A stretch of 43,856 nt of DNA, from NCBI GenBank assembly GCA_947600065.1, contig CANQFZ010000011.1, positions 1-43,856 of the forward strand. Reading direction: 5' to 3'. This document shows, piece after piece, positions 1-41,835 of the stretch (the stretch's first letter is position 1; each line of letters opens with the position of its first letter). The position numbers and the translations under genes are program-made. The DNA comes from an uncultured Clostridia bacterium. Its GTDB lineage: Bacteria; Bacillota; Clostridia; Oscillospirales; Ruminococcaceae. The notes beneath the pieces are model-generated. The model searched no databases and was not told the origin of the DNA. It saw only the letters and a list, made by a program, of their open reading frames with translations.

Positions 1-129
1 GCTAAAGGGTGTGGGGAAAACAAGAGTTTTCCCCACATTGCCGTTTTAAAAACCGTGTTTTTAAAACGGCAATCCTAAAAGAGGTTTTGAGCGGAAGAGT
101 TCCTAGGAAATGCAACTACATAGGAGCGG
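1..129. repeat. Partial multi-hairpin intergenic element (copy A)
   Basis: Two consecutive perfect hairpins are visible: an 11-bp stem at 11-21/26-36 with loop AAGA, and a 16-bp stem at 38-53/57-72 with loop CGT. They match the last two hairpins of the larger element at 11048-11222 in order and loop, but the stem bases differ in a pairing-preserving way. Downstream, GTTTTGAGCGGAAG and a TAGGAGCGG motif also recur near 11225-11280. The element lies at the 3' end of the minus-strand carboxypeptidase gene and may act as its terminator. The left part of the element would lie outside the window. Confidence 0.7.
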
Positions 130-7001: not shown

Positions 7002-8666
7002 ATGCAAATTAAACGATCGTACAAAAATATATTTATTGTGTTATTAACGCTATGTATTCTGTTATCTTTAGCAGCAATTGCAATGCCTGTTCGGGCGGTT
7101 GATGTTAATGGTGACGGTATTGATGATGATATAGGTTTAGCAGATAAAAGCGGTGCTTCGGCAGGGTATTTCTATTGGAACGGATATAATACCGAGTGGG
7201 GCGTTCGTGTAACAATGGTAGATAATAACGGCAATCGTGTTTCTTCACCGATAGATTATACAAATGCAAAGTATATTTCAACAATATCAGGCGGAGTTAT
7301 CGCAATGGAAGATGTGCGACATTTCGGAAGGCTATGTAAAACCGATTACAGAAAAAACGGATGGACTATTTCAGATTATAAATCAACTATCTATAAATGC
7401 TATATACCACCAACAGCAAAAGATGAAAGTGGCACAACATTATCTTTGCCTTGTGTAATCAACGGTACTACTTATGGTATAGATAGAGCTAAGATAGTAA
7501 ATTATTTCAGCAATACAGATATAATTAAGTCATATATTAGTAAAGCCGGCAGTATTACCTATCAGCAGGTATTAGATAATCATTATGAGTTTTTAGTAGA
7601 ACCACTGATTTATCTTACAGTATATACTGACAGTAAATGGCGAGCTTATGCATTTACGCCTACAGAAATTGCATTGTATGCCGAAAGCAAAGGTATTCCC
7701 GGAAAATTTGGCAGTGCAAATATAAGGTCTTGGGCTAAATCATTATTTCTTGATTATTCTGACATAGGATTTAATGCTTACAAAACTTATTCGGATTTTA
7801 GCAGATTTGAGGGCGCAGGTGACGGTGCAATTATTGGAGATGATTATACCACAATAAAAAAATATCTCGGTATGCTGACGATATTATTCAATGACTACAC
7901 CCCTTCAACTAATATAGTTAAAATTTATTACCACAAATATGATATAAACGGCAATCAGATTGGTAGGGCTATATACGTTTCTAACTTTGATTTAGGCTCA
8001 GAACCTACCAAGCAATTCCGACCGGTCGATTCATACGGAACACCGGTTGCAGCCTGTGTTGAGAAAAGCTTTCCGTCTTTGAAGTGGTATCCACACGCTG
8101 CTTATCGTGTACGACAAGTAGGTGACCCTGATAAAACAACTAAACTCACATCATCTTTAACAATTTATTCAAGCGATGTCAGCAATAATTACACGATCCA
8201 TGTCAAAGTCATCGACACCCCTGTAATCCCCACAACCATTAAAGTCTATTACCACCTCTACAACAGCAGCGACGTCCAGACCTCACTTAAAACATCAACA
8301 TTCGACTTAGCCACAAGCTCCACCAAACAATTCACGCCAAGCACCGCATACGGAACACCCGTCGCGGCTTGCGTTGAAAATAATCCACCATCTACAAATA
8401 GTTATCCATTCACTCCTTATCGTGTGCGTGAAGTAGGCGATCCTGACAGTAAGTCCAAACTAACGGCAACTTTAACAGTCACATCAAGCGATGTCAGCAA
8501 TAATTACACGATCCATGTCAAAGTCATCGACACCGTACCCCCGCCCGCAACCGTAAAAGTCCCCGTCTACTACTATTACTACGACGGTTACGGCAACCAG
8601 ACAAGCTGCTCGTCAAGCGTTGAATCCTATGTGGAGTTAAACAAGACAAATTGGCGCTATTTTTGA
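7002..8666 (+). CDS. Secreted protein with tandem C-terminal repeats, apparently truncated
   Basis: A 554-residue exported protein. The signal peptide runs to about residue 32 (cleavage after VRA). Directly after it is DVNGDGIDDD, a calcium-loop-like acidic motif also seen in dockerin and EF-hand-like repeats. Residues about 35-300 form an unrecognised domain. Two repeats follow, starting near residues 304 and 410, each beginning with IKIYYH or IKVYYH and ending SDVSNNYTIHVKVIDT. A third, different unit (PVYYYYYDGYGNQ) begins near 516 but stops after about 40 residues. Codon usage changes abruptly inside the gene, from AT-rich to C-ending codons near 8215, back to AT-rich near 8380, and back again. 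A strong SD (AAAGGAG) precedes the ATG. A cell-surface or adhesive role is possible but not shown. Confidence 0.8.
   Translation: MQIKRSYKNIFIVLLTLCILLSLAAIAMPVRAVDVNGDGIDDDIGLADKSGASAGYFYWNGYNTEWGVRVTMVDNNGNRVSSPIDYTNAKYISTISGGVIAMEDVRHFGRLCKTDYRKNGWTISDYKSTIYKCYIPPTAKDESGTTLSLPCVINGTTYGIDRAKIVNYFSNTDIIKSYISKAGSITYQQVLDNHYEFLVEPLIYLTVYTDSKWRAYAFTPTEIALYAESKGIPGKFGSANIRSWAKSLFLDYSDIGFNAYKTYSDFSRFEGAGDGAIIGDDYTTIKKYLGMLTILFNDYTPSTNIVKIYYHKYDINGNQIGRAIYVSNFDLGSEPTKQFRPVDSYGTPVAACVEKSFPSLKWYPHAAYRVRQVGDPDKTTKLTSSLTIYSSDVSNNYTIHVKVIDTPVIPTTIKVYYHLYNSSDVQTSLKTSTFDLATSSTKQFTPSTAYGTPVAACVENNPPSTNSYPFTPYRVREVGDPDSKSKLTATLTVTSSDVSNNYTIHVKVIDTVPPPATVKVPVYYYYYDGYGNQTSCSSSVESYVELNKTNWRYF
8169..8219 (+). 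repeat. 51-bp perfect direct repeat, copy 1
   Basis: Identical to 8484-8534. It encodes SSDVSNNYTIHVKVIDT at the end of the first C-terminal repeat of the secreted protein. Identity at all synonymous positions implies recent copying or gene conversion rather than simple protein-level conservation. Confidence 0.95.
8484..8534 (+). repeat. 51-bp perfect direct repeat, copy 2
   Basis: Second identical copy, 315 bp downstream of the first, closing the second protein repeat. The sequence between the copies is much less conserved. Confidence 0.95.
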
Positions 8667-10871: not shown

Positions 10872-10957
10872 GTTATACGGACAAATTGTATATTTTCAAG
10901 GACAATAATTTGTGTATAATACCACTTGACATTGAAAAAACGGATTCTTTGCGCTTC

Positions 10958-10992
10958 TAGAGGCTAGAAGCTAGAAGCAAGAGGCAAGAAGA
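10958..10992 (+). repeat. Heptanucleotide array, C type, five units
   Basis: Units TAGAGGC, TAGAAGC, TAGAAGC, AAGAGGC and AAGAAGA. Four of five units end in C. It directly precedes GTTTTGAGCGG, the left edge of the multi-hairpin element, as also happens near 16502. Confidence 0.9.
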
Positions 10993-11280
10993 TGTTTTGA
11001 GCGGAGAACAACGTTTTCTTTTAAAACAACTAAACGGGCGTCGCACAAAAGTTTTTTGAAAAGGAGCTTGAGGGAAAACTTTTTTTCAAAAAAGTTTTCC
11101 CTCAATAACGCTTCAAAGAAGCGCATCAGGTTAAATGCCTTCGGCATTAAACCTGGGGTGCGGGGAAAACAAGAGTTTTCCCCGCATTTTCAAATTTAAA
11201 ACGTAGTTTTAAATTTGAAAATTATGAAACAACATTTGAGAGGGTAACAGCCTTAGAAATAGATTTACCTTAGAGCGGAA
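10993..11280. repeat. Multi-hairpin intergenic element (copy B, most complete)
   Basis: After TTTTGAGCGG come, in order: a long hairpin 11068-11085/11088-11105 (18 bp, stem TTGAGGGAAAACTTTTTT); a short GCTTC/GAAGC hairpin at 11110-11122; an AGGTTAAATGCC/GGCATTAAACCT hairpin near 11128-11154; an 11-bp stem 11160-11170/11175-11185 with loop AAGA; and a 17-bp stem 11186-11202/11206-11222 with loop GTA. Copies or parts occur at 1-129, 16509-16698 and (inverted) 41590-41835. No protein-coding potential is evident. Confidence 0.85.
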
Positions 11281-11475
11281 AATAAAGTATGTTTAGATTA
11301 TTAACAGTGATAAACGAGAGGACAACTTTTCGGCTGTTACTGCATACAGCCATTGTGTATACTGTCATCTGCCAACATGGTGGATGCTGGGCGCGCCGGC
11401 GCCCCGAGCCCCGCCTGTTGTCAGTTGACAATTGACAAGGTACAGTATGCAGTAACAACCGATAGGTTGTCAAAT

Positions 11476-11520: not shown

Positions 11521-11580
11521 AAAAGAGTATCTATCTAAATATCGTTATCTCGCTCTATCCCCCTAACCCCCTTCCCCTTC

Positions 11581-11615
11581 TAGAGGTTAGAAGTTAGAAG
11601 TAAGAGGTAAGAATT
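11581..11615 (+). repeat. Heptanucleotide array, T type, five units
   Basis: Units TAGAGGT, TAGAAGT, TAGAAGT, AAGAGGT and AAGAATT. It is the same array as at 10958-10992, with T in place of C at the seventh base of the first four units. Confidence 0.9.
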
Positions 11616-11699
11616 TCAAGGAGCTTTTGGAATATAAAGTTTTTTGGTTTTCGGAAAAAGAAACTAGGGGCTAGAGTTTAAGCCGAAAGGCTGTCCGCT

Positions 11700-13247: not shown

Positions 13248-13265
13248 AAGACCGCCTCCCCCATC

Positions 13266-13300
13266 CAGAGGTTAGAAATTAGAGGTAAGAGGTTAGAGCT
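13266..13300 (+). repeat. Heptanucleotide array, T type, five units
   Basis: Units CAGAGGT, TAGAAAT, TAGAGGT, AAGAGGT and TAGAGCT, just upstream of the EAL gene start. The remaining 13301-13475 holds an inverted heptad fragment (near 13335), a GCATTATCCG hairpin fragment and the CAGACTG element end, with no gene. Confidence 0.85.
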
Positions 13301-13426
13301 TTAAAGAAAATGTTGTTCAATTTTCGTAAATATTCTAGCCTCTTTCTCTGAAAAACAAATAACTTTAATTTTAAAATCACATTTGACTTCTTACAGCATT
13401 ATCCGACTTCGTCGGAAAACGCTACA

Positions 13427-16508: not shown

Positions 16509-16698
16509 TGTTTTGAGCGGCGAAGCACTTTTCAAATTATCAGCCACTACACGGGCGGCGCACGAAAGTTTTTTGAAAAGGAGCTTGAGGAAAAACTTTT
16601 TTTCAAAAAAGTTTTCCCTCAATAACGCTTCAAAGAAGCGCATCAGGTTAAATGCCTTCGGCATTAAACCTGGGGTGTGGGGAAAACAAGAGTTTCCC
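16509..16698 (+). repeat. Multi-hairpin intergenic element (copy C, 3' truncated)
   Basis: Runs in parallel with copy B from GTTTTGAGCGG through the TTGAGG-AAAAACTTTTTTT hairpin, the GCTTC hairpin and the AGGTTAAATGCC hairpin, then breaks off in the middle of the fourth hairpin (AACAAGAGTTTCCC) exactly where a heptad array begins. Confidence 0.85.
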
Positions 16699-16701
16699 TT
16701 C

Positions 16702-16736
16702 TAGAGGTTAGAGATTAGAGGTAAGAGGTAAGAAGT
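16702..16736 (+). repeat. Heptanucleotide array, T type, five units
   Basis: Units TAGAGGT, TAGAGAT, TAGAGGT, AAGAGGT and AAGAAGT. All five end in T. Confidence 0.9.
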
Positions 16737-17104
16737 CAAAGGTAGTTTTGGAGATAAAGTTTTTTGATGTTCAGAGAAAGAGACTAGAGGCTAGAGTTTA
16801 AGAGGAAAAGTTGTTTTCCACTCAAAACAAATTCTAGTCTCTAGCTTCTTCTTTATGACAATCAAAAAACTTTATCTTCCAAAAGCTCCTTGAAAATCTT
16901 ACAGCATTATCCGCCTTACGGCGGATAATGCGCTTACACTCTAATCTCTAACCTCTAAAAGGGCGAGTGAAGGTTATTGAGGAAAATTGCGTTTGAAAAG
17001 AACCACAAAACGGAATACATAATTATTCATGCTCTTTGTTTTAACATATTTTCCTTTTAACATTAAACCTGAAAATGTTCAAAAAAATTTTTTTAACTAT
17101 CAAT

Positions 17105-17600
17105 TGCCTGTGATTTCAACATTACTTTAAACAAGTTCAAATTTTTTAAAAGGCTTTTATTTAAAAGAAAATTTAACATTTTCAACTGAGTTTTCAACAA
17201 TTTTTGTTTTGAATTATCCAATTTATGTTTAATTTTTTTAAATTTAATAAAAAATATTGAAAATAAAATTTAGTTTTCAACAATTTTAATTAAACTAAAA
17301 AATAAATCCTATTTTAATGCCAAATTAAAAATTTACAATTTGTATAAATTTTGTCTGAAAAATTAAAAATGAATTTTATTCTATATACATATCAGAAAAA
17401 ATCTGTTGTTTTTAATGAACTTTTTCACATTTTCAACCGAGTTTTCAACCAAAAATAAAATTTTTCATTTTGTATATTTAAAAAATTCTTTTTCAACAAA
17501 ACTATGTTGATTGTTTTTGATTATAGTTAAATAAATTTAAATTAAGTTATTATAAAATATTATTACCTAATGAAAAATCGTTTTTTGTTGATTTTACACA
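17105..17600 (+). other. oriC, upstream part (DnaA-box-like 9-mers and AT-rich region)
   Basis: The region is extremely AT-rich and has no gene. Plus-strand 9-mers of the TTTTCAAC family occur at 17113-17121 (ATTTCAACA), 17179-17187 (TTTTCAACT), 17191-17199 (TTTTCAACA), 17274-17282 (TTTTCAACA), 17430-17438 and 17442-17450 (TTTTCAACC), and 17490-17498 (TTTTCAACA). Weaker minus-strand TGTTGATT words lie at 17505 and 17586. The stretch 17200-17420 is a likely DNA unwinding element. Together with the boxes after dnaA this fits a bipartite origin. The box sequence differs from the classical TTATCCACA. Confidence 0.75.
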
Positions 17601-17662: not shown

Positions 17663-17706
17663 GATTATAAGTGAAAATATGTATTATAAGAAATATGGTG
17701 AATAAA

Positions 17707-19065
17707 ATGAGTTTATCTTCTCTTTCGGATATTTATAGACGTGTCGTGGATAATTGCATGGAAGAATATAACGATCTGTCTGATTCGGCGAGGTCGCTGT
17801 GGCTCGATCCGCTCGTTCCCGTTAAAATGGACGGAGGTACTTTTGTGCTTGCTGCCGAAAATGAATTTCAAAGAGATACGCTTATTGAATTATGGCTGGT
17901 GAGAATAGAAGAACAGCTTAAAAACGTTCTGGGCGTGCCGATGAAAGTCGAAATAATCGTTGACAACAACCTTTCTTCCAAAAAACCCGTTATATCCGAA
18001 ATAATAAAGTCCGACAATATAAACGAAGCTGCCGAAGTTATAGACAAAAAAATTACCTATACATTCGATAATTTTATAGTCGGTCCTTCAAATAACCTTG
18101 CTTTTGCTGCGGCAAAATCTGTTTCAAAAAAGCAGCATGAAAGATATAATCCTTTATTTATTTACGGTGATTCGGGACTTGGAAAAACCCATTTGCTTTC
18201 GGCTATAAAGTTTGAAATGCAAAAAAATTATCCGGGAATAAATATTATTTATATTCCCGCCGAGACTTTTACAAATGAGTTTCTTCATTCTATTTCAAAT
18301 AATACCGTAGAACAGTTTGACGATAAATATCGCGGAGCGGACGCGCTGCTTATAGACGATATCCAGTTTATCGCGGGCAAAGAGCAGACGGAAGAAAAGT
18401 TCTTCCATATCTTTAACGAATTATATAATCAGAATAAGATAATTGTTCTTACTTCAGACCGCCCCGCAAAAGAAATAAAATCTATTTCGGACAGACTGAA
18501 AACAAGGTTCAGTTCGGGTCTTATCGCGGACATAAAGCCTCCCGAATATGAAACAAGGCTCGCTATAATACAAAGAAAAGCCGAACTTTTGAATTTTATG
18601 ATAACAGACGATGTTATAGACTATATAGCTACAAAGCTTAAAAGCAACATTCGCCAGATAGAGGGCGTTGTTACAAAGCTTAATGCGCTTTATGTCGTTT
18701 CTCAGGTAAAGCCGTCTATAACAGTTGCACAGAACGTTATAAAGGATATAGTTACCGACCATCAGCCTATACCTATAACGGTAGATAAGATAATAAACGA
18801 GGTCAGCAAGATCTACAGCATTGAGCCCGAGGAAATGCGTTCTCAAAGAAGAACAGCTAATATTTCTCAGGCAAGAAAGGTTGCTATTTACGTTATACAA
18901 GAAGTAACGGGGCTTCCCTATGAAAGCATAGGACAGGAATTTAACGGGAGAGATCATTCGACGGTCGTATATGCGATAAAGTCCGTTAAAGAAGAAATGG
19001 AACACGACAGCGGATTCCGTTCGATAGTTGAAGACATAATAAAGAACATAAAAACAAACCAGTAA
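17707..19065 (+). CDS. dnaA: Chromosomal replication initiator DnaA
   Basis: A 452-residue AAA+ initiator that binds DnaA boxes and opens oriC. Domain I starts with SLSSLSDIYRRVVDNC. Domain III has Walker A GDSGLGKTH (about 154-162) and Walker B LLIDDIQF (about 214-221). Domain IV ends with the helix-turn-helix signature GRDHSTVVYA (about 414-423). ATG 17707 is preferred because GGTGA precedes it and the alignment-like start matches the family; in-frame ATG 17695 and GTG 17671 are alternatives. The DnaA-box-like 9-mers upstream and downstream suggest autoregulation. The domain IV signature is close to the usual GRDHTTV. Confidence 0.97.
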   Translation: MSLSSLSDIYRRVVDNCMEEYNDLSDSARSLWLDPLVPVKMDGGTFVLAAENEFQRDTLIELWLVRIEEQLKNVLGVPMKVEIIVDNNLSSKKPVISEIIKSDNINEAAEVIDKKITYTFDNFIVGPSNNLAFAAAKSVSKKQHERYNPLFIYGDSGLGKTHLLSAIKFEMQKNYPGINIIYIPAETFTNEFLHSISNNTVEQFDDKYRGADALLIDDIQFIAGKEQTEEKFFHIFNELYNQNKIIVLTSDRPAKEIKSISDRLKTRFSSGLIADIKPPEYETRLAIIQRKAELLNFMITDDVIDYIATKLKSNIRQIEGVVTKLNALYVVSQVKPSITVAQNVIKDIVTDHQPIPITVDKIINEVSKIYSIEPEEMRSQRRTANISQARKVAIYVIQEVTGLPYESIGQEFNGRDHSTVVYAIKSVKEEMEHDSGFRSIVEDIIKNIKTNQ

Positions 19066-22035: not shown

Positions 22036-22262
22036 ACAAGTTGTTTGATTTTTGGAGAAAGGTGACGAAAGCAGGAATACTTACTAAAATCGAATAACCT
22101 TTCCTTTAAAACTCTAACATCTTACCTCTTACTTCTATCTTCTAAAAAGGCAGGGCGCGGGGCGCCGGCGCCCCGCATTCTCCCCCTTCCCCTTCGGGAA
22201 AGGGGGCGGGGAATATGGCGAGAAAACGTAATTTAGACAAACTACATTTGAAAATAATCTCT
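22036..22262. repeat. Repeat insertion between the two remB 3' ends
   Basis: No gene. It holds an inverted heptad array (22110-22144), a perfect 20-bp GC palindrome at 22157-22176 (GCGGGGCGCC with its mirror), a C-rich/G-rich hairpin CCCCCTTCCC near 22182-22206, then ACATTTGAAAATAATCTC resembling the end of other modules. The same order (heptads, GC palindrome, CCCCCTTCCCC hairpin, GTTTGAAAAGA) recurs at 36496-36660. Confidence 0.85.
22110..22144 (-). repeat. Heptanucleotide array, minus orientation, five units
   Basis: Read on the minus strand: TAGAAGA, TAGAAGT, AAGAGGT, AAGATGT and TAGAGTT. Confidence 0.85.
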
Positions 22263-36283: not shown

Positions 36284-36692
36284 TTATTCAAGTCTGTATA
36301 AAAAGTGTCTTTTCAAGGTTTCGGGTAGGCTACGCCCGTTGGCAGTTGACAGTAAACAGTGTACGCATTATCCGCTTCGCGGAAAACGCTGTATGCAGTA
36401 ATAACCGAAAGGTTGTTTGCATTTTGTCAGTATTCTAGCCTCTAACCTCTTACTCCGAAAGCAAAAAGACTTTATCTCCCAAAAGCTCCCCCCGAAATTC
36501 TTACCTCTTACCTCTTACTTCTTATCTCTAACTTCTAAAAGGGCGGGTCGCAGGGCGCGCCTGCGCCCCGCACTCTCCCCCTTCCCCTTCGGGGAAGGGG
36601 GCAGGGGGTTGGGGCGAGTAAACGTTATATAGAAAAACAGCGTTTGAAAAGAAAATAGTTTTTATACAAGATGATTCATTTTAGGTGATATA
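36284..36692. repeat. Repeat-module tract between ABC ATPase and permease
   Basis: No gene. In order: a GGCAGTTGACAGTAAACAGTG module, a CGCATTATCCGCTTCGCGG hairpin fragment, the CCGAAAGGTTGT module, inverted heptads (36434-36450 and 36496-36537), a GGGCGCG-type palindrome, a perfect 11-bp hairpin CCCCCTTCCCC/GGGGAAGGGGG (36577-36601) and a GTTTGAAAAGA end. AGGTGA at 36683-36688 is the permease SD. Confidence 0.8.
36496..36537 (-). repeat. Heptanucleotide array, minus orientation, six units
   Basis: On the minus strand: TAGAAGT, TAGAGAT, AAGAAGT, AAGAGGT, AAGAGGT, AAGAATT. All end in T. Confidence 0.85.
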
Positions 36693-39600
36693 TTGAAGGC
36701 TTTTAATAAGAATACATTTCGCGAGATCTCGAAAACAAAGAACCGATTTTTTTCGATTTTGCTTATCTGTGCAATTGGCGTCGGTTTTTTCAGCGGCGTT
36801 AGGGCGACCTGCGACGACATGAAAACATCTGCGGACAATTTTTATGACGAAAATTGTCTGTTTGATATAAGGGTGTTGTCGTCTTTCGGCCTGACTGACG
36901 GCGACAAAGACGCGCTTTTGGAGATAGACGGCATTGACGGAGTTTATACCTCTAAGTATACCGACCTCTCGCTTCATAATAAAGAACATGAATATCTGAC
37001 GCGCGTATACTCGGCGCAGAATGAAGATATAAATAAAATAGATATTATTGAGGGCAGGAATATCCAAAACGAGGGAGAATGTCTGATAAGCTGCAATTTC
37101 GTGAAGTCGGGAGTAGCGAATGTTGGAGAAAAGATAACCCTCGAAGATTTGACAGAAGCAGAAGAATTCCCGCTTTCTAAAAAAGAATACACGGTTGTGG
37201 GCTTATATAATACGCCGATGTTTATTTCCATAACGCAAAGAGGAAGCACAAATATCGGCGACGGCTCTATAGACGCGTTTATGATAGTGGACGAAAAGGA
37301 TTTTACGCAGGACGTTTATACGGAGATATACGCGACTTCCGATAAACTTAAAAGCGAAAAGAGCTATTCGGACGAATACAAGAGCCTGCGCGACGAGCTG
37401 ATGGATAAGCTAGAAGAACTGGGCGTAAAACGAAGCGAGATAAGGACGGACGAAGTCCTCGGAGAAGCAAGGCAGGAGATAGCTGACGGAGAAGAGGAGC
37501 TTGAACAGGCGAAAATCGACGGAGAAAAAGAGCTTGCCGACGCAAAGCAAGAACTTGACGACGGCAAAAAGGAAATAGCTGACGGAGAAAAGGAGCTTAT
37601 TGACGCGAAGAAAGAACTTGACGACGGCAAGAAAGAAATTGAGGACGGAGAAAAAGAACTTGCTAGTGCAAAGAAAGAGCTTGACGACGGAAAAGTTCAG
37701 CTGGATGACGCGCAAAAACAGCTCGACGACGCGCTGACAGAGCTTAATGACGGTAAGAAACAGCTCCAAGACGGAAAGAAAGTTCTTGACGATTCGAAAA
37801 AACAGCTTGATGATGCGCAGGCTGAACTTGACGAAAATAAAAAACAGCTCGAAGCGGGCAGGGTTGCACTTGAAGCGGCAAAAGCGGAGTTTAATGCAAA
37901 CCTCGCGCAATATGAAAGTGCCGAGGCTGAATTAAAATCAAAAGAAGAACAGCTCTTAGCCGCGGAACAGATGTTCGGAAAAGAAGCCGTGGCAAGCTAT
38001 AGAGCGCAGTTTGAAGCGGCAAAACAGCTTCTCGCCGAAAACAAGGCTCAGCTTGACGCGGGAAAAGCTCAGTTAGACGAGCAGGAGCAAACGCTTGTTG
38101 ACGGAGAAAAGGCTCTCGCCGACGGGCAGAAGCAGATAGACGAAAATCGCGCGCTTTATGAAAGCGGCTTGAAAGAATACAACGAAAACGAAAAGAAACT
38201 TTCCGACGCAGAAAAGCAATATAACGAGGGATATGCCGAATTTGCCGCAAAAAAAGCCGAATACGAACAGGGCGTAAAGCAATACGAAGACGGCGCGAAA
38301 GAAATAGCCGACGCAAAGAAGAAATACAACGACGGTCTCAAAGAATACGAGGACGGTTTAAAGGAAATAGAGGACGCGAAGATAAAATATGCCGACGGTC
38401 TTAAAGAATACGAAGACGGCGTAAAGGAATACAACGAGAAGATAGCCGACGCGGAAAAAGAAATTGCCGACGCAAAGCAAAAGCTTGCCGACGCGGGAAG
38501 CGCCGAATGGTATTTATTCGACCGAGAGGACAACGTGGGCTATGCCGAATATGAGTCCAACGCGGAGAGAATAAACAAGATCTCCACTATTTTCCCGATC
38601 TTTTTCCTGCTTGTGGCGGGGCTTGTCTGTCTTACAACAATGTCAAGAATGGTAGAAGAACAGCGAACGCAGATAGGAACATTAAAAGCCCTCGGCTATT
38701 CTGGCGGCGCTATTGTAAGGCACTATATGATATACGCCGTATTGGGTGCGCTTGTCGGAGGGATAGGCGGCGCGTTTTTCGGGTGCGTGCTTTTTCCGTG
38801 GGTAATTATGTATGCATATTCTATGATGTATAACATAACCGACTTTGTTTTCCTGTTTGCGCCCGACAACATCATTTTCTCCGTAGGCTCTATGACTGCG
38901 GCGATTGCGATCACGGTATATTTCAGCTGTCGAAAAGCGCTCGGCGAAACGCCCGCTTCTCTTATGCGCCCGAAAGCGCCGAAAGCGGGAAAACGCATAT
39001 TACTGGAAAAGATACCGTTTATTTGGAACAGAATGAATTTCTTTGCGAAGATAAGCGGGCGAAACCTTTTCAGATATAAACGCAGAATGTTTATGACAGT
39101 GGTAGGAATTGCGGGCTGTACGGCGCTCTCGCTGACGGGCTTCGGACTAAAAGACTCCATTTCGGACATTGTAGACCTGCAGTATAAGAGCATATACAAA
39201 TACAGCGGATATGTGGCTTATGACGAAAACGCAAGCGACAGTGAGCTTCAGACGGTCTATGACGATATGCTGGGATATAACCCCGACACAACTTACACAA
39301 GGGCGCTTATAAAGCAATATGAAACGAAGTTTGAAAATAACACGGTCCAGTGTTATGTAACGGCGGTCGAGGATACGCAGATATTTGAAAGCTTTGTGGA
39401 TATTCACGAGCGCGTATCGCGTGAAAAGGTGTCAATAAGCGGCGGCGCGGTAATTACCGAAAAGGCCGCAAAGCTCCTCGGAGCAAAGGTCGGAGACGAG
39501 ATAGAGCTGTCTATCGGCGGCGGGAAGACAAAAAAGGTAAAAATTTCGGGCATAACCGAGCAGTATACAAGCCACTATCTTTACATAAGCGGAAGTCAGT

Positions 39601-40181
39601 ATGAAGAAATTTTCGGCGATAAGCCAAAATACAACATCGTTTATTTTGAAAACGGCATAACAGGCGAGGACAGCGAGGAAATAAACAAGTTCAGCGAGAT
39701 AATGCTTAAAAATGAAAATATCCTCGCGGTCATGATGAATGCAACGTCGCTTTCTTCGATAAAAGAAACGCTGTCTATAATGGACTTGGTGACGATAGTG
39801 CTTATTGTGTCGGCGGGAGCGCTGGCGCTTGTCGTGCTTTACAATCTCTCGAACGTCAATATTACGGAGAGAATACGCGAGATAGCGACGCTAAAGGTTT
39901 TAGGCTTTTATGACGTTGAGGTTTCGAGCTATGTTTTCCGTGAAAACATCGTTCTGTCAATTATGGGCGGCGCGGTAGGACTTCTCCTAGGACACTGGCT
40001 CTGTATGTTCGTAATAACGACGGCGGAGATAGACGAGGTTATGTTCGGGCGAGTGATACATCCGCTTTCGTACTTATGGGCATTTTTAGTCACGATAGGT
40101 TTTTCGCTTATGGTAAATCTTATAATGACGAGAACGCTTAAAAAGATAAGTATGGTAGAGTCATTGAAATCCGTCGAGTAA
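36693..40181 (+). CDS. Giant FtsX-family ABC transporter permease with coiled-coil insert
   Basis: A 1162-residue permease. A first membrane helix lies at about residues 18-36, then an extracellular domain to about 250. From about 255 to 606 comes a long run of short repeats of the type DGKKELDDGKKEI and DAKKKYNDGLKEYEDG, with an Asp/Glu-Lys-rich periodicity expected to form an extended helical or coiled-coil arm outside the cell. Two FtsX domains follow: three helices at about 630-755, and four or so at 780-800 and 1030-1150. The start is TTG with AGGTGA upstream. It presumably works with the ATPase at 35579-36283. Family members of this form are common in Clostridia; transported substrate unknown. 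Confidence 0.9.
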   Translation: MKAFNKNTFREISKTKNRFFSILLICAIGVGFFSGVRATCDDMKTSADNFYDENCLFDIRVLSSFGLTDGDKDALLEIDGIDGVYTSKYTDLSLHNKEHEYLTRVYSAQNEDINKIDIIEGRNIQNEGECLISCNFVKSGVANVGEKITLEDLTEAEEFPLSKKEYTVVGLYNTPMFISITQRGSTNIGDGSIDAFMIVDEKDFTQDVYTEIYATSDKLKSEKSYSDEYKSLRDELMDKLEELGVKRSEIRTDEVLGEARQEIADGEEELEQAKIDGEKELADAKQELDDGKKEIADGEKELIDAKKELDDGKKEIEDGEKELASAKKELDDGKVQLDDAQKQLDDALTELNDGKKQLQDGKKVLDDSKKQLDDAQAELDENKKQLEAGRVALEAAKAEFNANLAQYESAEAELKSKEEQLLAAEQMFGKEAVASYRAQFEAAKQLLAENKAQLDAGKAQLDEQEQTLVDGEKALADGQKQIDENRALYESGLKEYNENEKKLSDAEKQYNEGYAEFAAKKAEYEQGVKQYEDGAKEIADAKKKYNDGLKEYEDGLKEIEDAKIKYADGLKEYEDGVKEYNEKIADAEKEIADAKQKLADAGSAEWYLFDREDNVGYAEYESNAERINKISTIFPIFFLLVAGLVCLTTMSRMVEEQRTQIGTLKALGYSGGAIVRHYMIYAVLGALVGGIGGAFFGCVLFPWVIMYAYSMMYNITDFVFLFAPDNIIFSVGSMTAAIAITVYFSCRKALGETPASLMRPKAPKAGKRILLEKIPFIWNRMNFFAKISGRNLFRYKRRMFMTVVGIAGCTALSLTGFGLKDSISDIVDLQYKSIYKYSGYVAYDENASDSELQTVYDDMLGYNPDTTYTRALIKQYETKFENNTVQCYVTAVEDTQIFESFVDIHERVSREKVSISGGAVITEKAAKLLGAKVGDEIELSIGGGKTKKVKISGITEQYTSHYLYISGSQYEEIFGDKPKYNIVYFENGITGEDSEEINKFSEIMLKNENILAVMMNATSLSSIKETLSIMDLVTIVLIVSAGALALVVLYNLSNVNITERIREIATLKVLGFYDVEVSSYVFRENIVLSIMGGAVGLLLGHWLCMFVITTAEIDEVMFGRVIHPLSYLWAFLVTIGFSLMVNLIMTRTLKKISMVESLKSVE

Positions 40182-41162: not shown

Positions 41163-41543
41163 ATGAAAGACAGAATTTTGGAATCAAAGGAAAACTATCT
41201 CGAAACGATACTTATTCTTCGGAACAGGCAGGGAAATGTGCGGTCGGTAGATATTGCTGCGGAAATGGATTTTACAAAACCGTCGGTGAGCGTTGCGATG
41301 AAAAATCTTCGCAACGAGGGGTGCATCGAGGTCGATAAAAGCGGGTATATAACGCTGACGGAAAAGGGGCTTGAAATAGCGGAAAAGGTTTATGAAAGGC
41401 ATTTGCTGTTTACGGATTGGCTGACTTCTCTCGGAATACCGAAAGAAACAGCGGAAGAGGACGCCTGCAGAATGGAGCACTGCCTTTCGGCGGAGAGCTT
41501 TGCGGCGATAAAGGGGTATATAGAGAAACACGGAGCGTGTTAG
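41163..41543 (+). CDS. DtxR/MntR-family metal-dependent transcriptional regulator
   Basis: A 126-residue regulator. The winged helix covers about residues 8-65 (ENYLETILIL, VRSVDIAAEMDFTKPSVSVAMKNL, GYITLTEKG), and a short metal-binding/dimerisation part follows (ERHLLFTDWLTSLGIPKETAEEDACRMEHCLS), including the conserved E-x-x-C/H and ME-H ligands. No SH3-like third domain is present, so it is of the short MntR form. ATG 41163 is chosen: AAAGGAAAAGG lies upstream, and a longer reading frame beginning at 40977 overlaps the aspartoacylase gene in another frame. It may regulate manganese or iron genes, perhaps its own operon. Confidence 0.88.
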   Translation: MKDRILESKENYLETILILRNRQGNVRSVDIAAEMDFTKPSVSVAMKNLRNEGCIEVDKSGYITLTEKGLEIAEKVYERHLLFTDWLTSLGIPKETAEEDACRMEHCLSAESFAAIKGYIEKHGAC

Positions 41544-41547
41544 GGAA

Positions 41548-41583
41548 AAGGGGGAGAACCTTTTGAAAAAGGTTCTCCCCCTT
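41548..41583 (+). terminator. Terminator hairpin after the DtxR-like gene
   Basis: Stem AAGGGGGAGAACC/GGTTCTCCCCCTT (41548-41560/41571-41583), extended by TTTT/AAAA pairing. It is followed by CCCC-rich repeat sequence rather than T residues. Confidence 0.6.
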
Positions 41584-41589
41584 AAACCC

Positions 41590-41835
41590 CCTTTCCAAAA
41601 CTTTTATGTGCCGCCGCTGACGCGGCGGACGAAAGAGGAAAAACGTTTCCACTATTCGACCGCGCCGCAAGGCGCGACACGAAAGTTTTTTGAAAAGGGA
41701 TTCCAAAGGGAAAAACTTTTTTGTCAAAAAAGTTTTCCCTCAAACTCCCTTTCAAAAAACTTTCGTGCGCCGCCCGTTTGGTGGTTTTAAAATTAAAAGC
41801 GTTCGCCGCTCAAAACAAATTCTTATCTCTTACAA
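41590..41835 (-). repeat. Multi-hairpin intergenic element (copy D, inverted)
   Basis: Read on the minus strand it begins with heptads (near 41835), TTTTGAGCGGCGAA, then a CGGGCGGCGCACGAAAG segment, as in copies B and C. A nested cruciform spans 41678-41767: the outer stem pairs CACGAAAGTTTTTTGAAA with its mirror, and the inner stem pairs AGGGAAAAACTTTTTT. A further GCGCCGCAAGGCGCG hairpin lies near 41662-41676. Remaining 41836-41920 shows nothing recognisable. Confidence 0.8.

Follow-up and report, generated by a model that had tools for sequence, protein, structure and literature searches.

A high-copy mosaic hairpin repeat of uncultured Clostridia in which covariation of the fifth stem may reflect copying between DNA arms

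Four described systems share properties with the element reported here. REP/REPIN sequences with their RAYTs are high-copy, non-autonomous intergenic palindromes occurring as inverted doublets; REPINs are such doublets, and RAYTs are proposed to recognise them (Bertels and Rainey, 2011; PMC3116915). BIMEs, bacterial interspersed mosaic elements (see PMC2817692), combine palindromes with spacer modules in the gaps between genes. Long inverted repeats with internal repeats and no open reading frame (ORF) characterise MITEs and fold-back transposons such as Foldback and Galileo. Finally, work on template switching at quasipalindromes (PMC8794818, PMC8604942; see also PMC7202029) describes arm homogenisation, multi-base compensatory change and spacer inversion. 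PMC8604942 reports that the arms of inverted repeats become homogenised, and the spacers inverted, when the template is switched from one arm to the other, and refers to bacterial data showing that switching favours transversions.

The element was studied in a window of 43,856 nucleotides (the whole stretch of DNA analysed, from contig CANQFZ010000011.1 of an uncultured Clostridia bacterium), in which the original prediction had placed four copies with a common order of hairpins. The copy at 10993–11280, about 330 bp long including its heptamer array and containing five hairpins, and the three other copies comprised the following features:

10954–10992, plus strand: degenerate heptamer array (CTAGARG)n before the left end (from the sequence and a consensus built from 68 left ends of the own genome)
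10993–11067, plus strand: left end, TGTTTTGAGCGG...AAACGGGCG..CACAAAAGTTTTTTGAAAAGG (from the sequence and the consensus)
11068–11105, plus strand: stem 1, TTGAGGGAAAACT7CA6GTTTTCCCTCAA
11109–11123, plus strand: stem 2, CGCTTC/GAAGCG
11127–11155, plus strand: stem 3, CAGGTTAAATGCC(TTCG)GGCATTAAACCTG, with one mismatch
11160–11185, plus strand: stem 4, GCGGGG/CCCCGC with loop AAGA, the conserved core (exact 22-mer at 11162–11183)
11186–11222, plus strand: stem 5, a perfect 17-bp hairpin with loop GTA
11223–11280, plus strand: tail with GAGCGG-type motifs, toward the centre of the palindromic unit
1–129, plus strand: copy A, with stem 4 (11–36), stem 5 (37–73) and tail, cut by the contig start
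16509–16698, plus strand: copy C, with left end and stems 1–3, broken off within stem 4 between GAGTTTCCC and TTCTAGAGG
41709–41817, minus strand: copy D, with left end and stem 1 only

The common order held for the parts that each copy retains, but the five hairpins are not present in all of them: 1–129 has stems 4 and 5 only, 16509–16698 has stems 1–3 and half of stem 4, and the copy placed at 41590–41835 retains just the left end and stem 1, which adjoin unrelated-looking hairpin modules (41525–41708) to which they are joined. The junction at which copy C breaks off recurs in several other copies. The proposed change of stem 4 from GTGGGG/CCCCAC in copy A to GCGGGG/CCCCGC in the copy at 10993–11280, with the AAGA loop kept, was read directly in the sequence, and the fifth stems of these two copies, unlike in sequence, were both found to pair perfectly over 17 bp, as had been claimed.

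The element is modular. Copies of the own-genome group started with (CTAGARG)n and the TGTTTTGAGCGG left end and continued with stem 1 (replaced in some by another hairpin, CAGAGGGGAAAAAT...), stem 2, an optional stem 3 (TAAAGGG standing there in other copies), stem 4, stem 5, and the tail. Degenerate heptamer arrays (CTAGAGG/TTAGAAG) were located at module joints (window positions 10949–11021, 11572–11644, 13257–13329, and 16693–16765), together with a second heptamer-like class (TGTACAC/TCAACTG) at approximately 11344–11460; both classes also adjoin copies in relatives. Another tail module (CTGGAGGGGGAGCGGGGGAACCGGCAGGTTCCC...) follows stem 5 in the CANRDI loci L084, L087, L130, and L135, as well as in L221 of the own genome.

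Further repeats were observed elsewhere in the window. A module consisting of a GC-rich palindrome and a CCCCCTTCCCC hairpin is repeated at 22159–22211 and 36554–36606 (91% identical), outside the listed large ORFs. The ORF at 36693–40181 contains many 21-nt (7-residue) direct repeats at 37411–38493, as in a long coiled-coil protein, and that at 7002–8666 an internal direct repeat of 188 nt (8032–8219 and 8347–8534, 77% identical). Repeated AT-rich stretches of the TTTTCAAC type at 17159–17455, just upstream of dnaA (17671–19065), are possibly the replication origin.

Exact copies of the core GGGGAAAACAAGAGTTTTCCCC numbered 84 in the own genome (G000), a lower bound as several contigs begin or end inside copies, and 69, 89, and 85 in G002, G006, and G009, the genomes of three close species, respectively. 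A reversed control pattern had no match in the own genome, which excluded a chance origin, while a BLAST search with the 288-bp query returned 86 own-genome matches, many of them the palindrome matching itself. The core was present in 20 of the 43 genus genomes examined (own included) and in none of the 293 genomes of the order outside the genus (295 were sampled; the two positive ones, G000 and G009, are in the genus). With the 288-bp query, matches were obtained in 22 of 61 genomes, of which 21 (the own genome among them) belong to the genus and one, a weak match (E 2.9e-4), to another family; phages and plasmids gave none, and no exact core 22-mer was found in viral contigs. Among the matches listed, the core-bearing records come from uncultured gut Clostridia and carry the labels Clostridia, Oscillospiraceae or Ruminococcus sp., with isolate names referring to rabbit, water deer, and other sources; as these records were picked by exact core match, core conservation there is by construction. 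What recurred in more distant members of the genus was AGCGCTAAAGGGG followed by stem 4; the hairpins on either side differed in sequence, and a few copies had no clear stem 5. Among the literature hits listed, no description of the element was found, judged by titles and abstract openings and largely outside subscription journals.

Cores on opposite strands within 700 bp of each other were convergent in 26 cases and divergent in none. These were 9 in G000 (all 84 places considered), 11 in G009 (66 of 85 places), and 6 in the relative G011 (all 37); eight same-strand neighbours also lay at this distance (1, 7, and 0, respectively). The convergent cores of G011 were spaced 240–251 bp apart, and alignment of the six units showed palindromes with inverted halves and trains of small hairpins varying in number and order; the motif-to-motif span was 556–619 bp in the three units with one end motif on both sides. 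At loci L253–L258 of this genome, trains of small GC-rich hairpins (CTCCGCACGAAGTGCGG, TACTCCGTGCGAAGCACGG, TACTCTGCGCGCTGGCGCGCAG) differ from one element copy to the next in how many hairpins they hold and in what order. Among 44 listed convergent core pairs (some places counted twice), the 36 less than 700 bp apart held no open stretch longer than 105 codons, and seven of the eight that were 1.1–5.7 kb apart enclosed an open stretch of 187–534 codons, which may be cargo or a partner gene. In our reading, a unit is one half, or what is left, of a larger element built as an inverted repeat, comprising heptamer array, left end, a series of exchangeable hairpins, stem 4, stem 5 and tail, followed by the same in reverse.

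Once identical contexts were merged, 283 copies were available, and stem 5 was called in 243 of these; the other 40 reflected truncation, contig ends or degeneration, and because the finder requires near-perfect arms, degenerate stems among them fall outside the counts. Stem 5 was a perfect hairpin in 226 of the 243, with 44 perfect arm types, and only 18 of 3881 pairs were non-Watson-Crick (T.G 5, G.T 1, C.A 1, G.A 4, A.G 3, T.C 3, T.T 1); before a few duplicate records were merged, the numbers were 288 copies, 246 stems, 227 perfect, and 21 of 3928 pairs. Arm lengths ranged from 9 to 18, with 16, 17, and 18 all found perfectly paired. Covariation over many copies, as anticipated by the original prediction, was significant in two ungapped alignments of distinct copies restricted to three-base loops, one with 16-bp arms (40 copies) and one with 17-bp arms (38 copies). 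The scores were 0.170 and 0.310 vs. shuffled means of 0.052 and 0.088, respectively; none of 500 shuffles reached either, and both far exceeded all slid controls. Two of the five measures applied to the 38 copies did not rise above shuffling, namely pairs with two-sided change (123/500) and further pair types (405/500). There were 142 two-sided cells (41 + 101), compared with 4 in which one side had changed (wobble) and 7 that were unpaired; transversional changes, which have no path via G-U, made up 101 (28 + 73) of the 142. Cells here are sequences rather than events and are not independent, arm types being common to several copies. Tail identity was also tried as a clock for arm exchange and was uninformative (70.0 for shuffled tails vs. 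72.1 and 71.4).

Stem 5 also differed from the other stems in its loops. Fifteen perfect arm types carried more than one loop, and 10 of these included an exact reverse-complement loop pair (reciprocal pairs were CTTG/CAAG, GTA/TAC, CGT/ACG, CAT/ATG, GAA/TTC, TTT/AAA, TAT/ATA, and TCC/GGA). Random loops gave a mean of 1.4 such arm types (0 of 20000 draws reached 10) and loops drawn from the pool a mean of 3.4 (1 of 5000 reached 10); the result was unaltered after merging duplicates. The rarer orientation occurred in 14 of 227 stem-5 copies. The stem-4 loop read CAAGAG in element orientation in all 233 copies, with 0/233 inverted, and its outer pair changed stepwise (C-G 45, T-A 21, T.G 7, C.A 4; the remaining row is a truncated copy). 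The stem-3 loop (TGC 30, TTC 25, TAC 25, TAT 3, TTAC 2) was never the reverse complement (0/85) and was of T-N-C-G type, closed by C-G with N variable, in 80 of 85 copies in one orientation. In stem 1, A/T runs of 3, 4, 5 or 6 were paired in 143 copies and unpaired in 10; its loops were CA in 134, AC in 13, GA in 3, and other in 2 (n = 152), so that 3 of 152 were inverted (GA being inverted CA). Since their loops are never inverted, stems 3 and 4 may be recognised; the non-flipping loops could reflect either recognition or descent from few recent master copies.

Such covariation would ordinarily suggest hairpins selected as RNA, transcribed from neighbouring genes and serving to stabilise 3' UTRs, to terminate transcription or as a small RNA. 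Besides the strong covariation of stem 5, a mild excess of wobble among its mismatches on the element strand (T.G and G.T 6 vs. C.A 1) points in this direction, as does the stem-3 loop, which on one strand resembles the RNA UNCG tetraloop family. On the other strand, however, the same loop reads as C(GNA)G, a stable DNA triloop; being RNA-type on one strand and DNA-type on the other, it favours neither RNA nor DNA. Among the 137 copies lying between ORFs of at least 120 aa in four genomes, 46 were in convergent gaps, which speaks for an RNA role, 44 and 32 were sense and antisense in co-directional gaps, and 15 were in divergent gaps (11 more copies lay inside such an ORF), compared to a baseline of 61 convergent, 146 co-directional, and 46 divergent adjacent ORF pairs with gaps of 150–1500 bp at the same loci. 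Copies were thus mildly enriched between gene ends with little strand preference, and the orientation counts lent little support to a terminator or 3' UTR role. Stem-5 wobble pairs are nearly absent overall and the loops are inverted, while in the outer pair of stem 4 the U.G and C.A intermediates are similar in number. Rfam gave no match at gathering score in the window, and the sub-threshold hits, far below the cut-offs, were taken as chance matches of AT-rich hairpins. Selection as RNA appeared unlikely. The step in the original prediction from conserved pairing to a selected RNA or cruciform was weakened for stem 5 by the transversional two-sided changes, matched lengths, and inverted loops, whereas stems 3 and 4 stayed compatible with protein recognition or an RNA role. 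Inverted duplication within each copy, named there as the opposing explanation, is closely approached by arm-to-arm copying, which fits stem 5 best.

Most likely, the arms of stem 5 change together because one is copied onto the other in DNA replication, rather than through preservation of an RNA shape. Stem 5 would form a DNA hairpin, and a nascent strand stalled there would change to another template, so that the sequence of one arm is transferred to the other; a single such event could yield compensatory changes and occasionally a flipped loop, and RNA selection would be unnecessary. Template switching is favoured as it predicts covariation, inverted loops, matched lengths, and block exchange at once, whereas RNA selection predicts wobble intermediates and constant loops. 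Multi-base compensatory changes have been reported to arise by template switching, and PMC8794818 expected the strongest support for switching to come from a compensatory change accompanied by loop inversion. In the data given there this combination was, however, extremely rare (6 of 9,931; Table 1) and not enriched over simulation. Several further points speak against the proposed process: no single event was polarised on a tree, the patterns being seen among copies with one genome per species; arm types are common to several copies, so that counts of stem-5 copies are not counts of events; the mismatches lean to wobble, as noted above; and uniform switching is opposed by stem 4, a comparable palindrome, and by stem 1, given how rarely or never their loops are inverted. 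Stem 4, which keeps both its sequence and its loop orientation, is for this reason considered the part that is probably recognised or otherwise constrained. Altogether, we read the family as a mosaic repeat akin to BIMEs and MITEs whose DNA hairpins correct themselves: a non-autonomous fold-back repeat whose stem 5 is matched to itself by replication template switching, whose arm types are spread by conversion, and whose stem 4 is constrained (probability about 0.58).

Comparison of syntenic sites showed how far stem 5 differs between genomes. Syntenic pairs had a flank at least 83% identical on one or both sides and covered part of the genomes, hence not all orthologous sites; they are not independent. 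Stem 5 was found in both members of 85 of the 105 pairs. The arms were the same in 25 of these (19 with the same loop, 5 with another loop, and 1 with an inverted loop) and different in 60, the fair count being 60 of 83 as two same-arm pairs were one genome under two labels. The pair with the inverted loop (L163/L134) has diverged surroundings and may represent different copies. Loci L128 and L066 are nearly identical over approximately 350 bp with stem 4, then differ by a block of approximately 110 bp with a stem 5 of another type, after which identity resumes; this block would be explained by ectopic gene conversion, which could exchange stem-5 blocks and so spread arm types. The differing arms, the mosaic make-up, the alternative modules at fixed positions, and the block exchange would also be expected of BIME-like debris, in which ectopic recombination shuffles old hairpin types with neither current template switching nor function. 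That account would leave the many different perfect arm pairs, the matched length changes, and the inverted loops unexplained, and we regard it as rather improbable.

The original prediction had further suggested a nonautonomous mobile element. In agreement with this, the repeat is high-copy and gene-free, and its syntenic sites are unlike in different species. Neither a transposase partner, among the four families searched, nor a signature of insertion came to light, and mobility is thus a presumption. Nine filled/empty comparisons at eight locus pairs mostly showed a different module mosaic in the other species, so that element ends could not be defined, and the putative empty sites displayed no clean join or readable target duplication. 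At the 10993 site, the core is missing between the same flanks in G002, G006, and G009, although a clean empty site of the kind proposed for relatives was not seen. The transposase search comprised four families. Matches to PF01797 (Y1 transposase) were obtained in 8 of 41 genus genomes but in none of the copy-rich G000, G002, G006, and G009 (69–89 cores each), and REP/RAYT membership was therefore unsupported. PF00665 (rve) was matched once in G000 and once in G002 but not in G006 or G009, the G000 match lying in a 3.3-kb locus without a core; PF01609 (DDE_Tnp_1) had none in any of the four, and PF00872 (Transposase_mut) none, G006 and G009 included.

These results also bear on the idea that selection acts on a cruciform or a single-stranded DNA hairpin because a transposase or other protein recognises it in trans, with unpaired copies failing to spread. 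The occurrence of the core across the genus, the fixed loop orientation, and the C(GNA)G reading of stem 3 would suit a recognised hairpin, and the convergent doublets recall REPINs as portrayed in PMC3116915. A site read by sequence is nevertheless hard to reconcile with a stem 5 that varies freely and inverts its loop, and two of the copy-rich genomes, G006 and G009, lacked a match to any of rve, DDE_Tnp_1 and Transposase_mut, in addition to PF01797; we consider this explanation unlikely. More speculative, and with a low probability in our estimation, is a transposase-free parasite of replication errors, whose hairpin train would stall the fork, whose arms would be matched and inverted second half built by switching, and which would spread by ectopic strand exchange at the core and heptamer arrays. 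If this were true, intergenic regions would turn over as cassettes.

Returning to arm copying by template switching, its relevance lies in the common practice of treating compensatory change as proof that an RNA structure is under selection. Here, hundreds of replicate hairpins show a pattern that fits DNA arm copying, with a contrast between the loops of stem 5 and those of stems 3 and 4, and such a dense natural source would make the choice between selection and mutation mechanism directly testable. Covariation in perfect palindromes should accordingly not be read as RNA function.

In relation to known systems, the element is longer than REP/REPIN sequences, in which a palindrome of 20–40 bp lies next to a GTAG or CGTC tag, and modular, the sequence of its stem 5 is free, and the genomes rich in copies yielded no match to the Y1 transposase. 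Like BIMEs, it combines palindromes with other conserved modules in variable order; unlike them, it has heptamer arrays where modules meet, the mosaics of entire intergenic regions vary from species to species, and the covariation fits arm copying. Terminal inverted repeats and the lack of an ORF, as seen in the six G011 units and in core pairs less than 700 bp apart, are traits of MITEs; the loci compared showed neither a readable target duplication nor a clean empty site, and the four transposase families searched gave no autonomous partner. Compared to quasipalindrome switching, it is a high-copy family that offers many replicate hairpins and the internal contrast of stem 5 with stems 3 and 4. 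It is therefore best described as a repeat of the BIME/MITE/REPIN kind, unusual in its fold-back architecture, in having no Y1 transposase found in copy-rich genomes, and in hairpins that look self-correcting.
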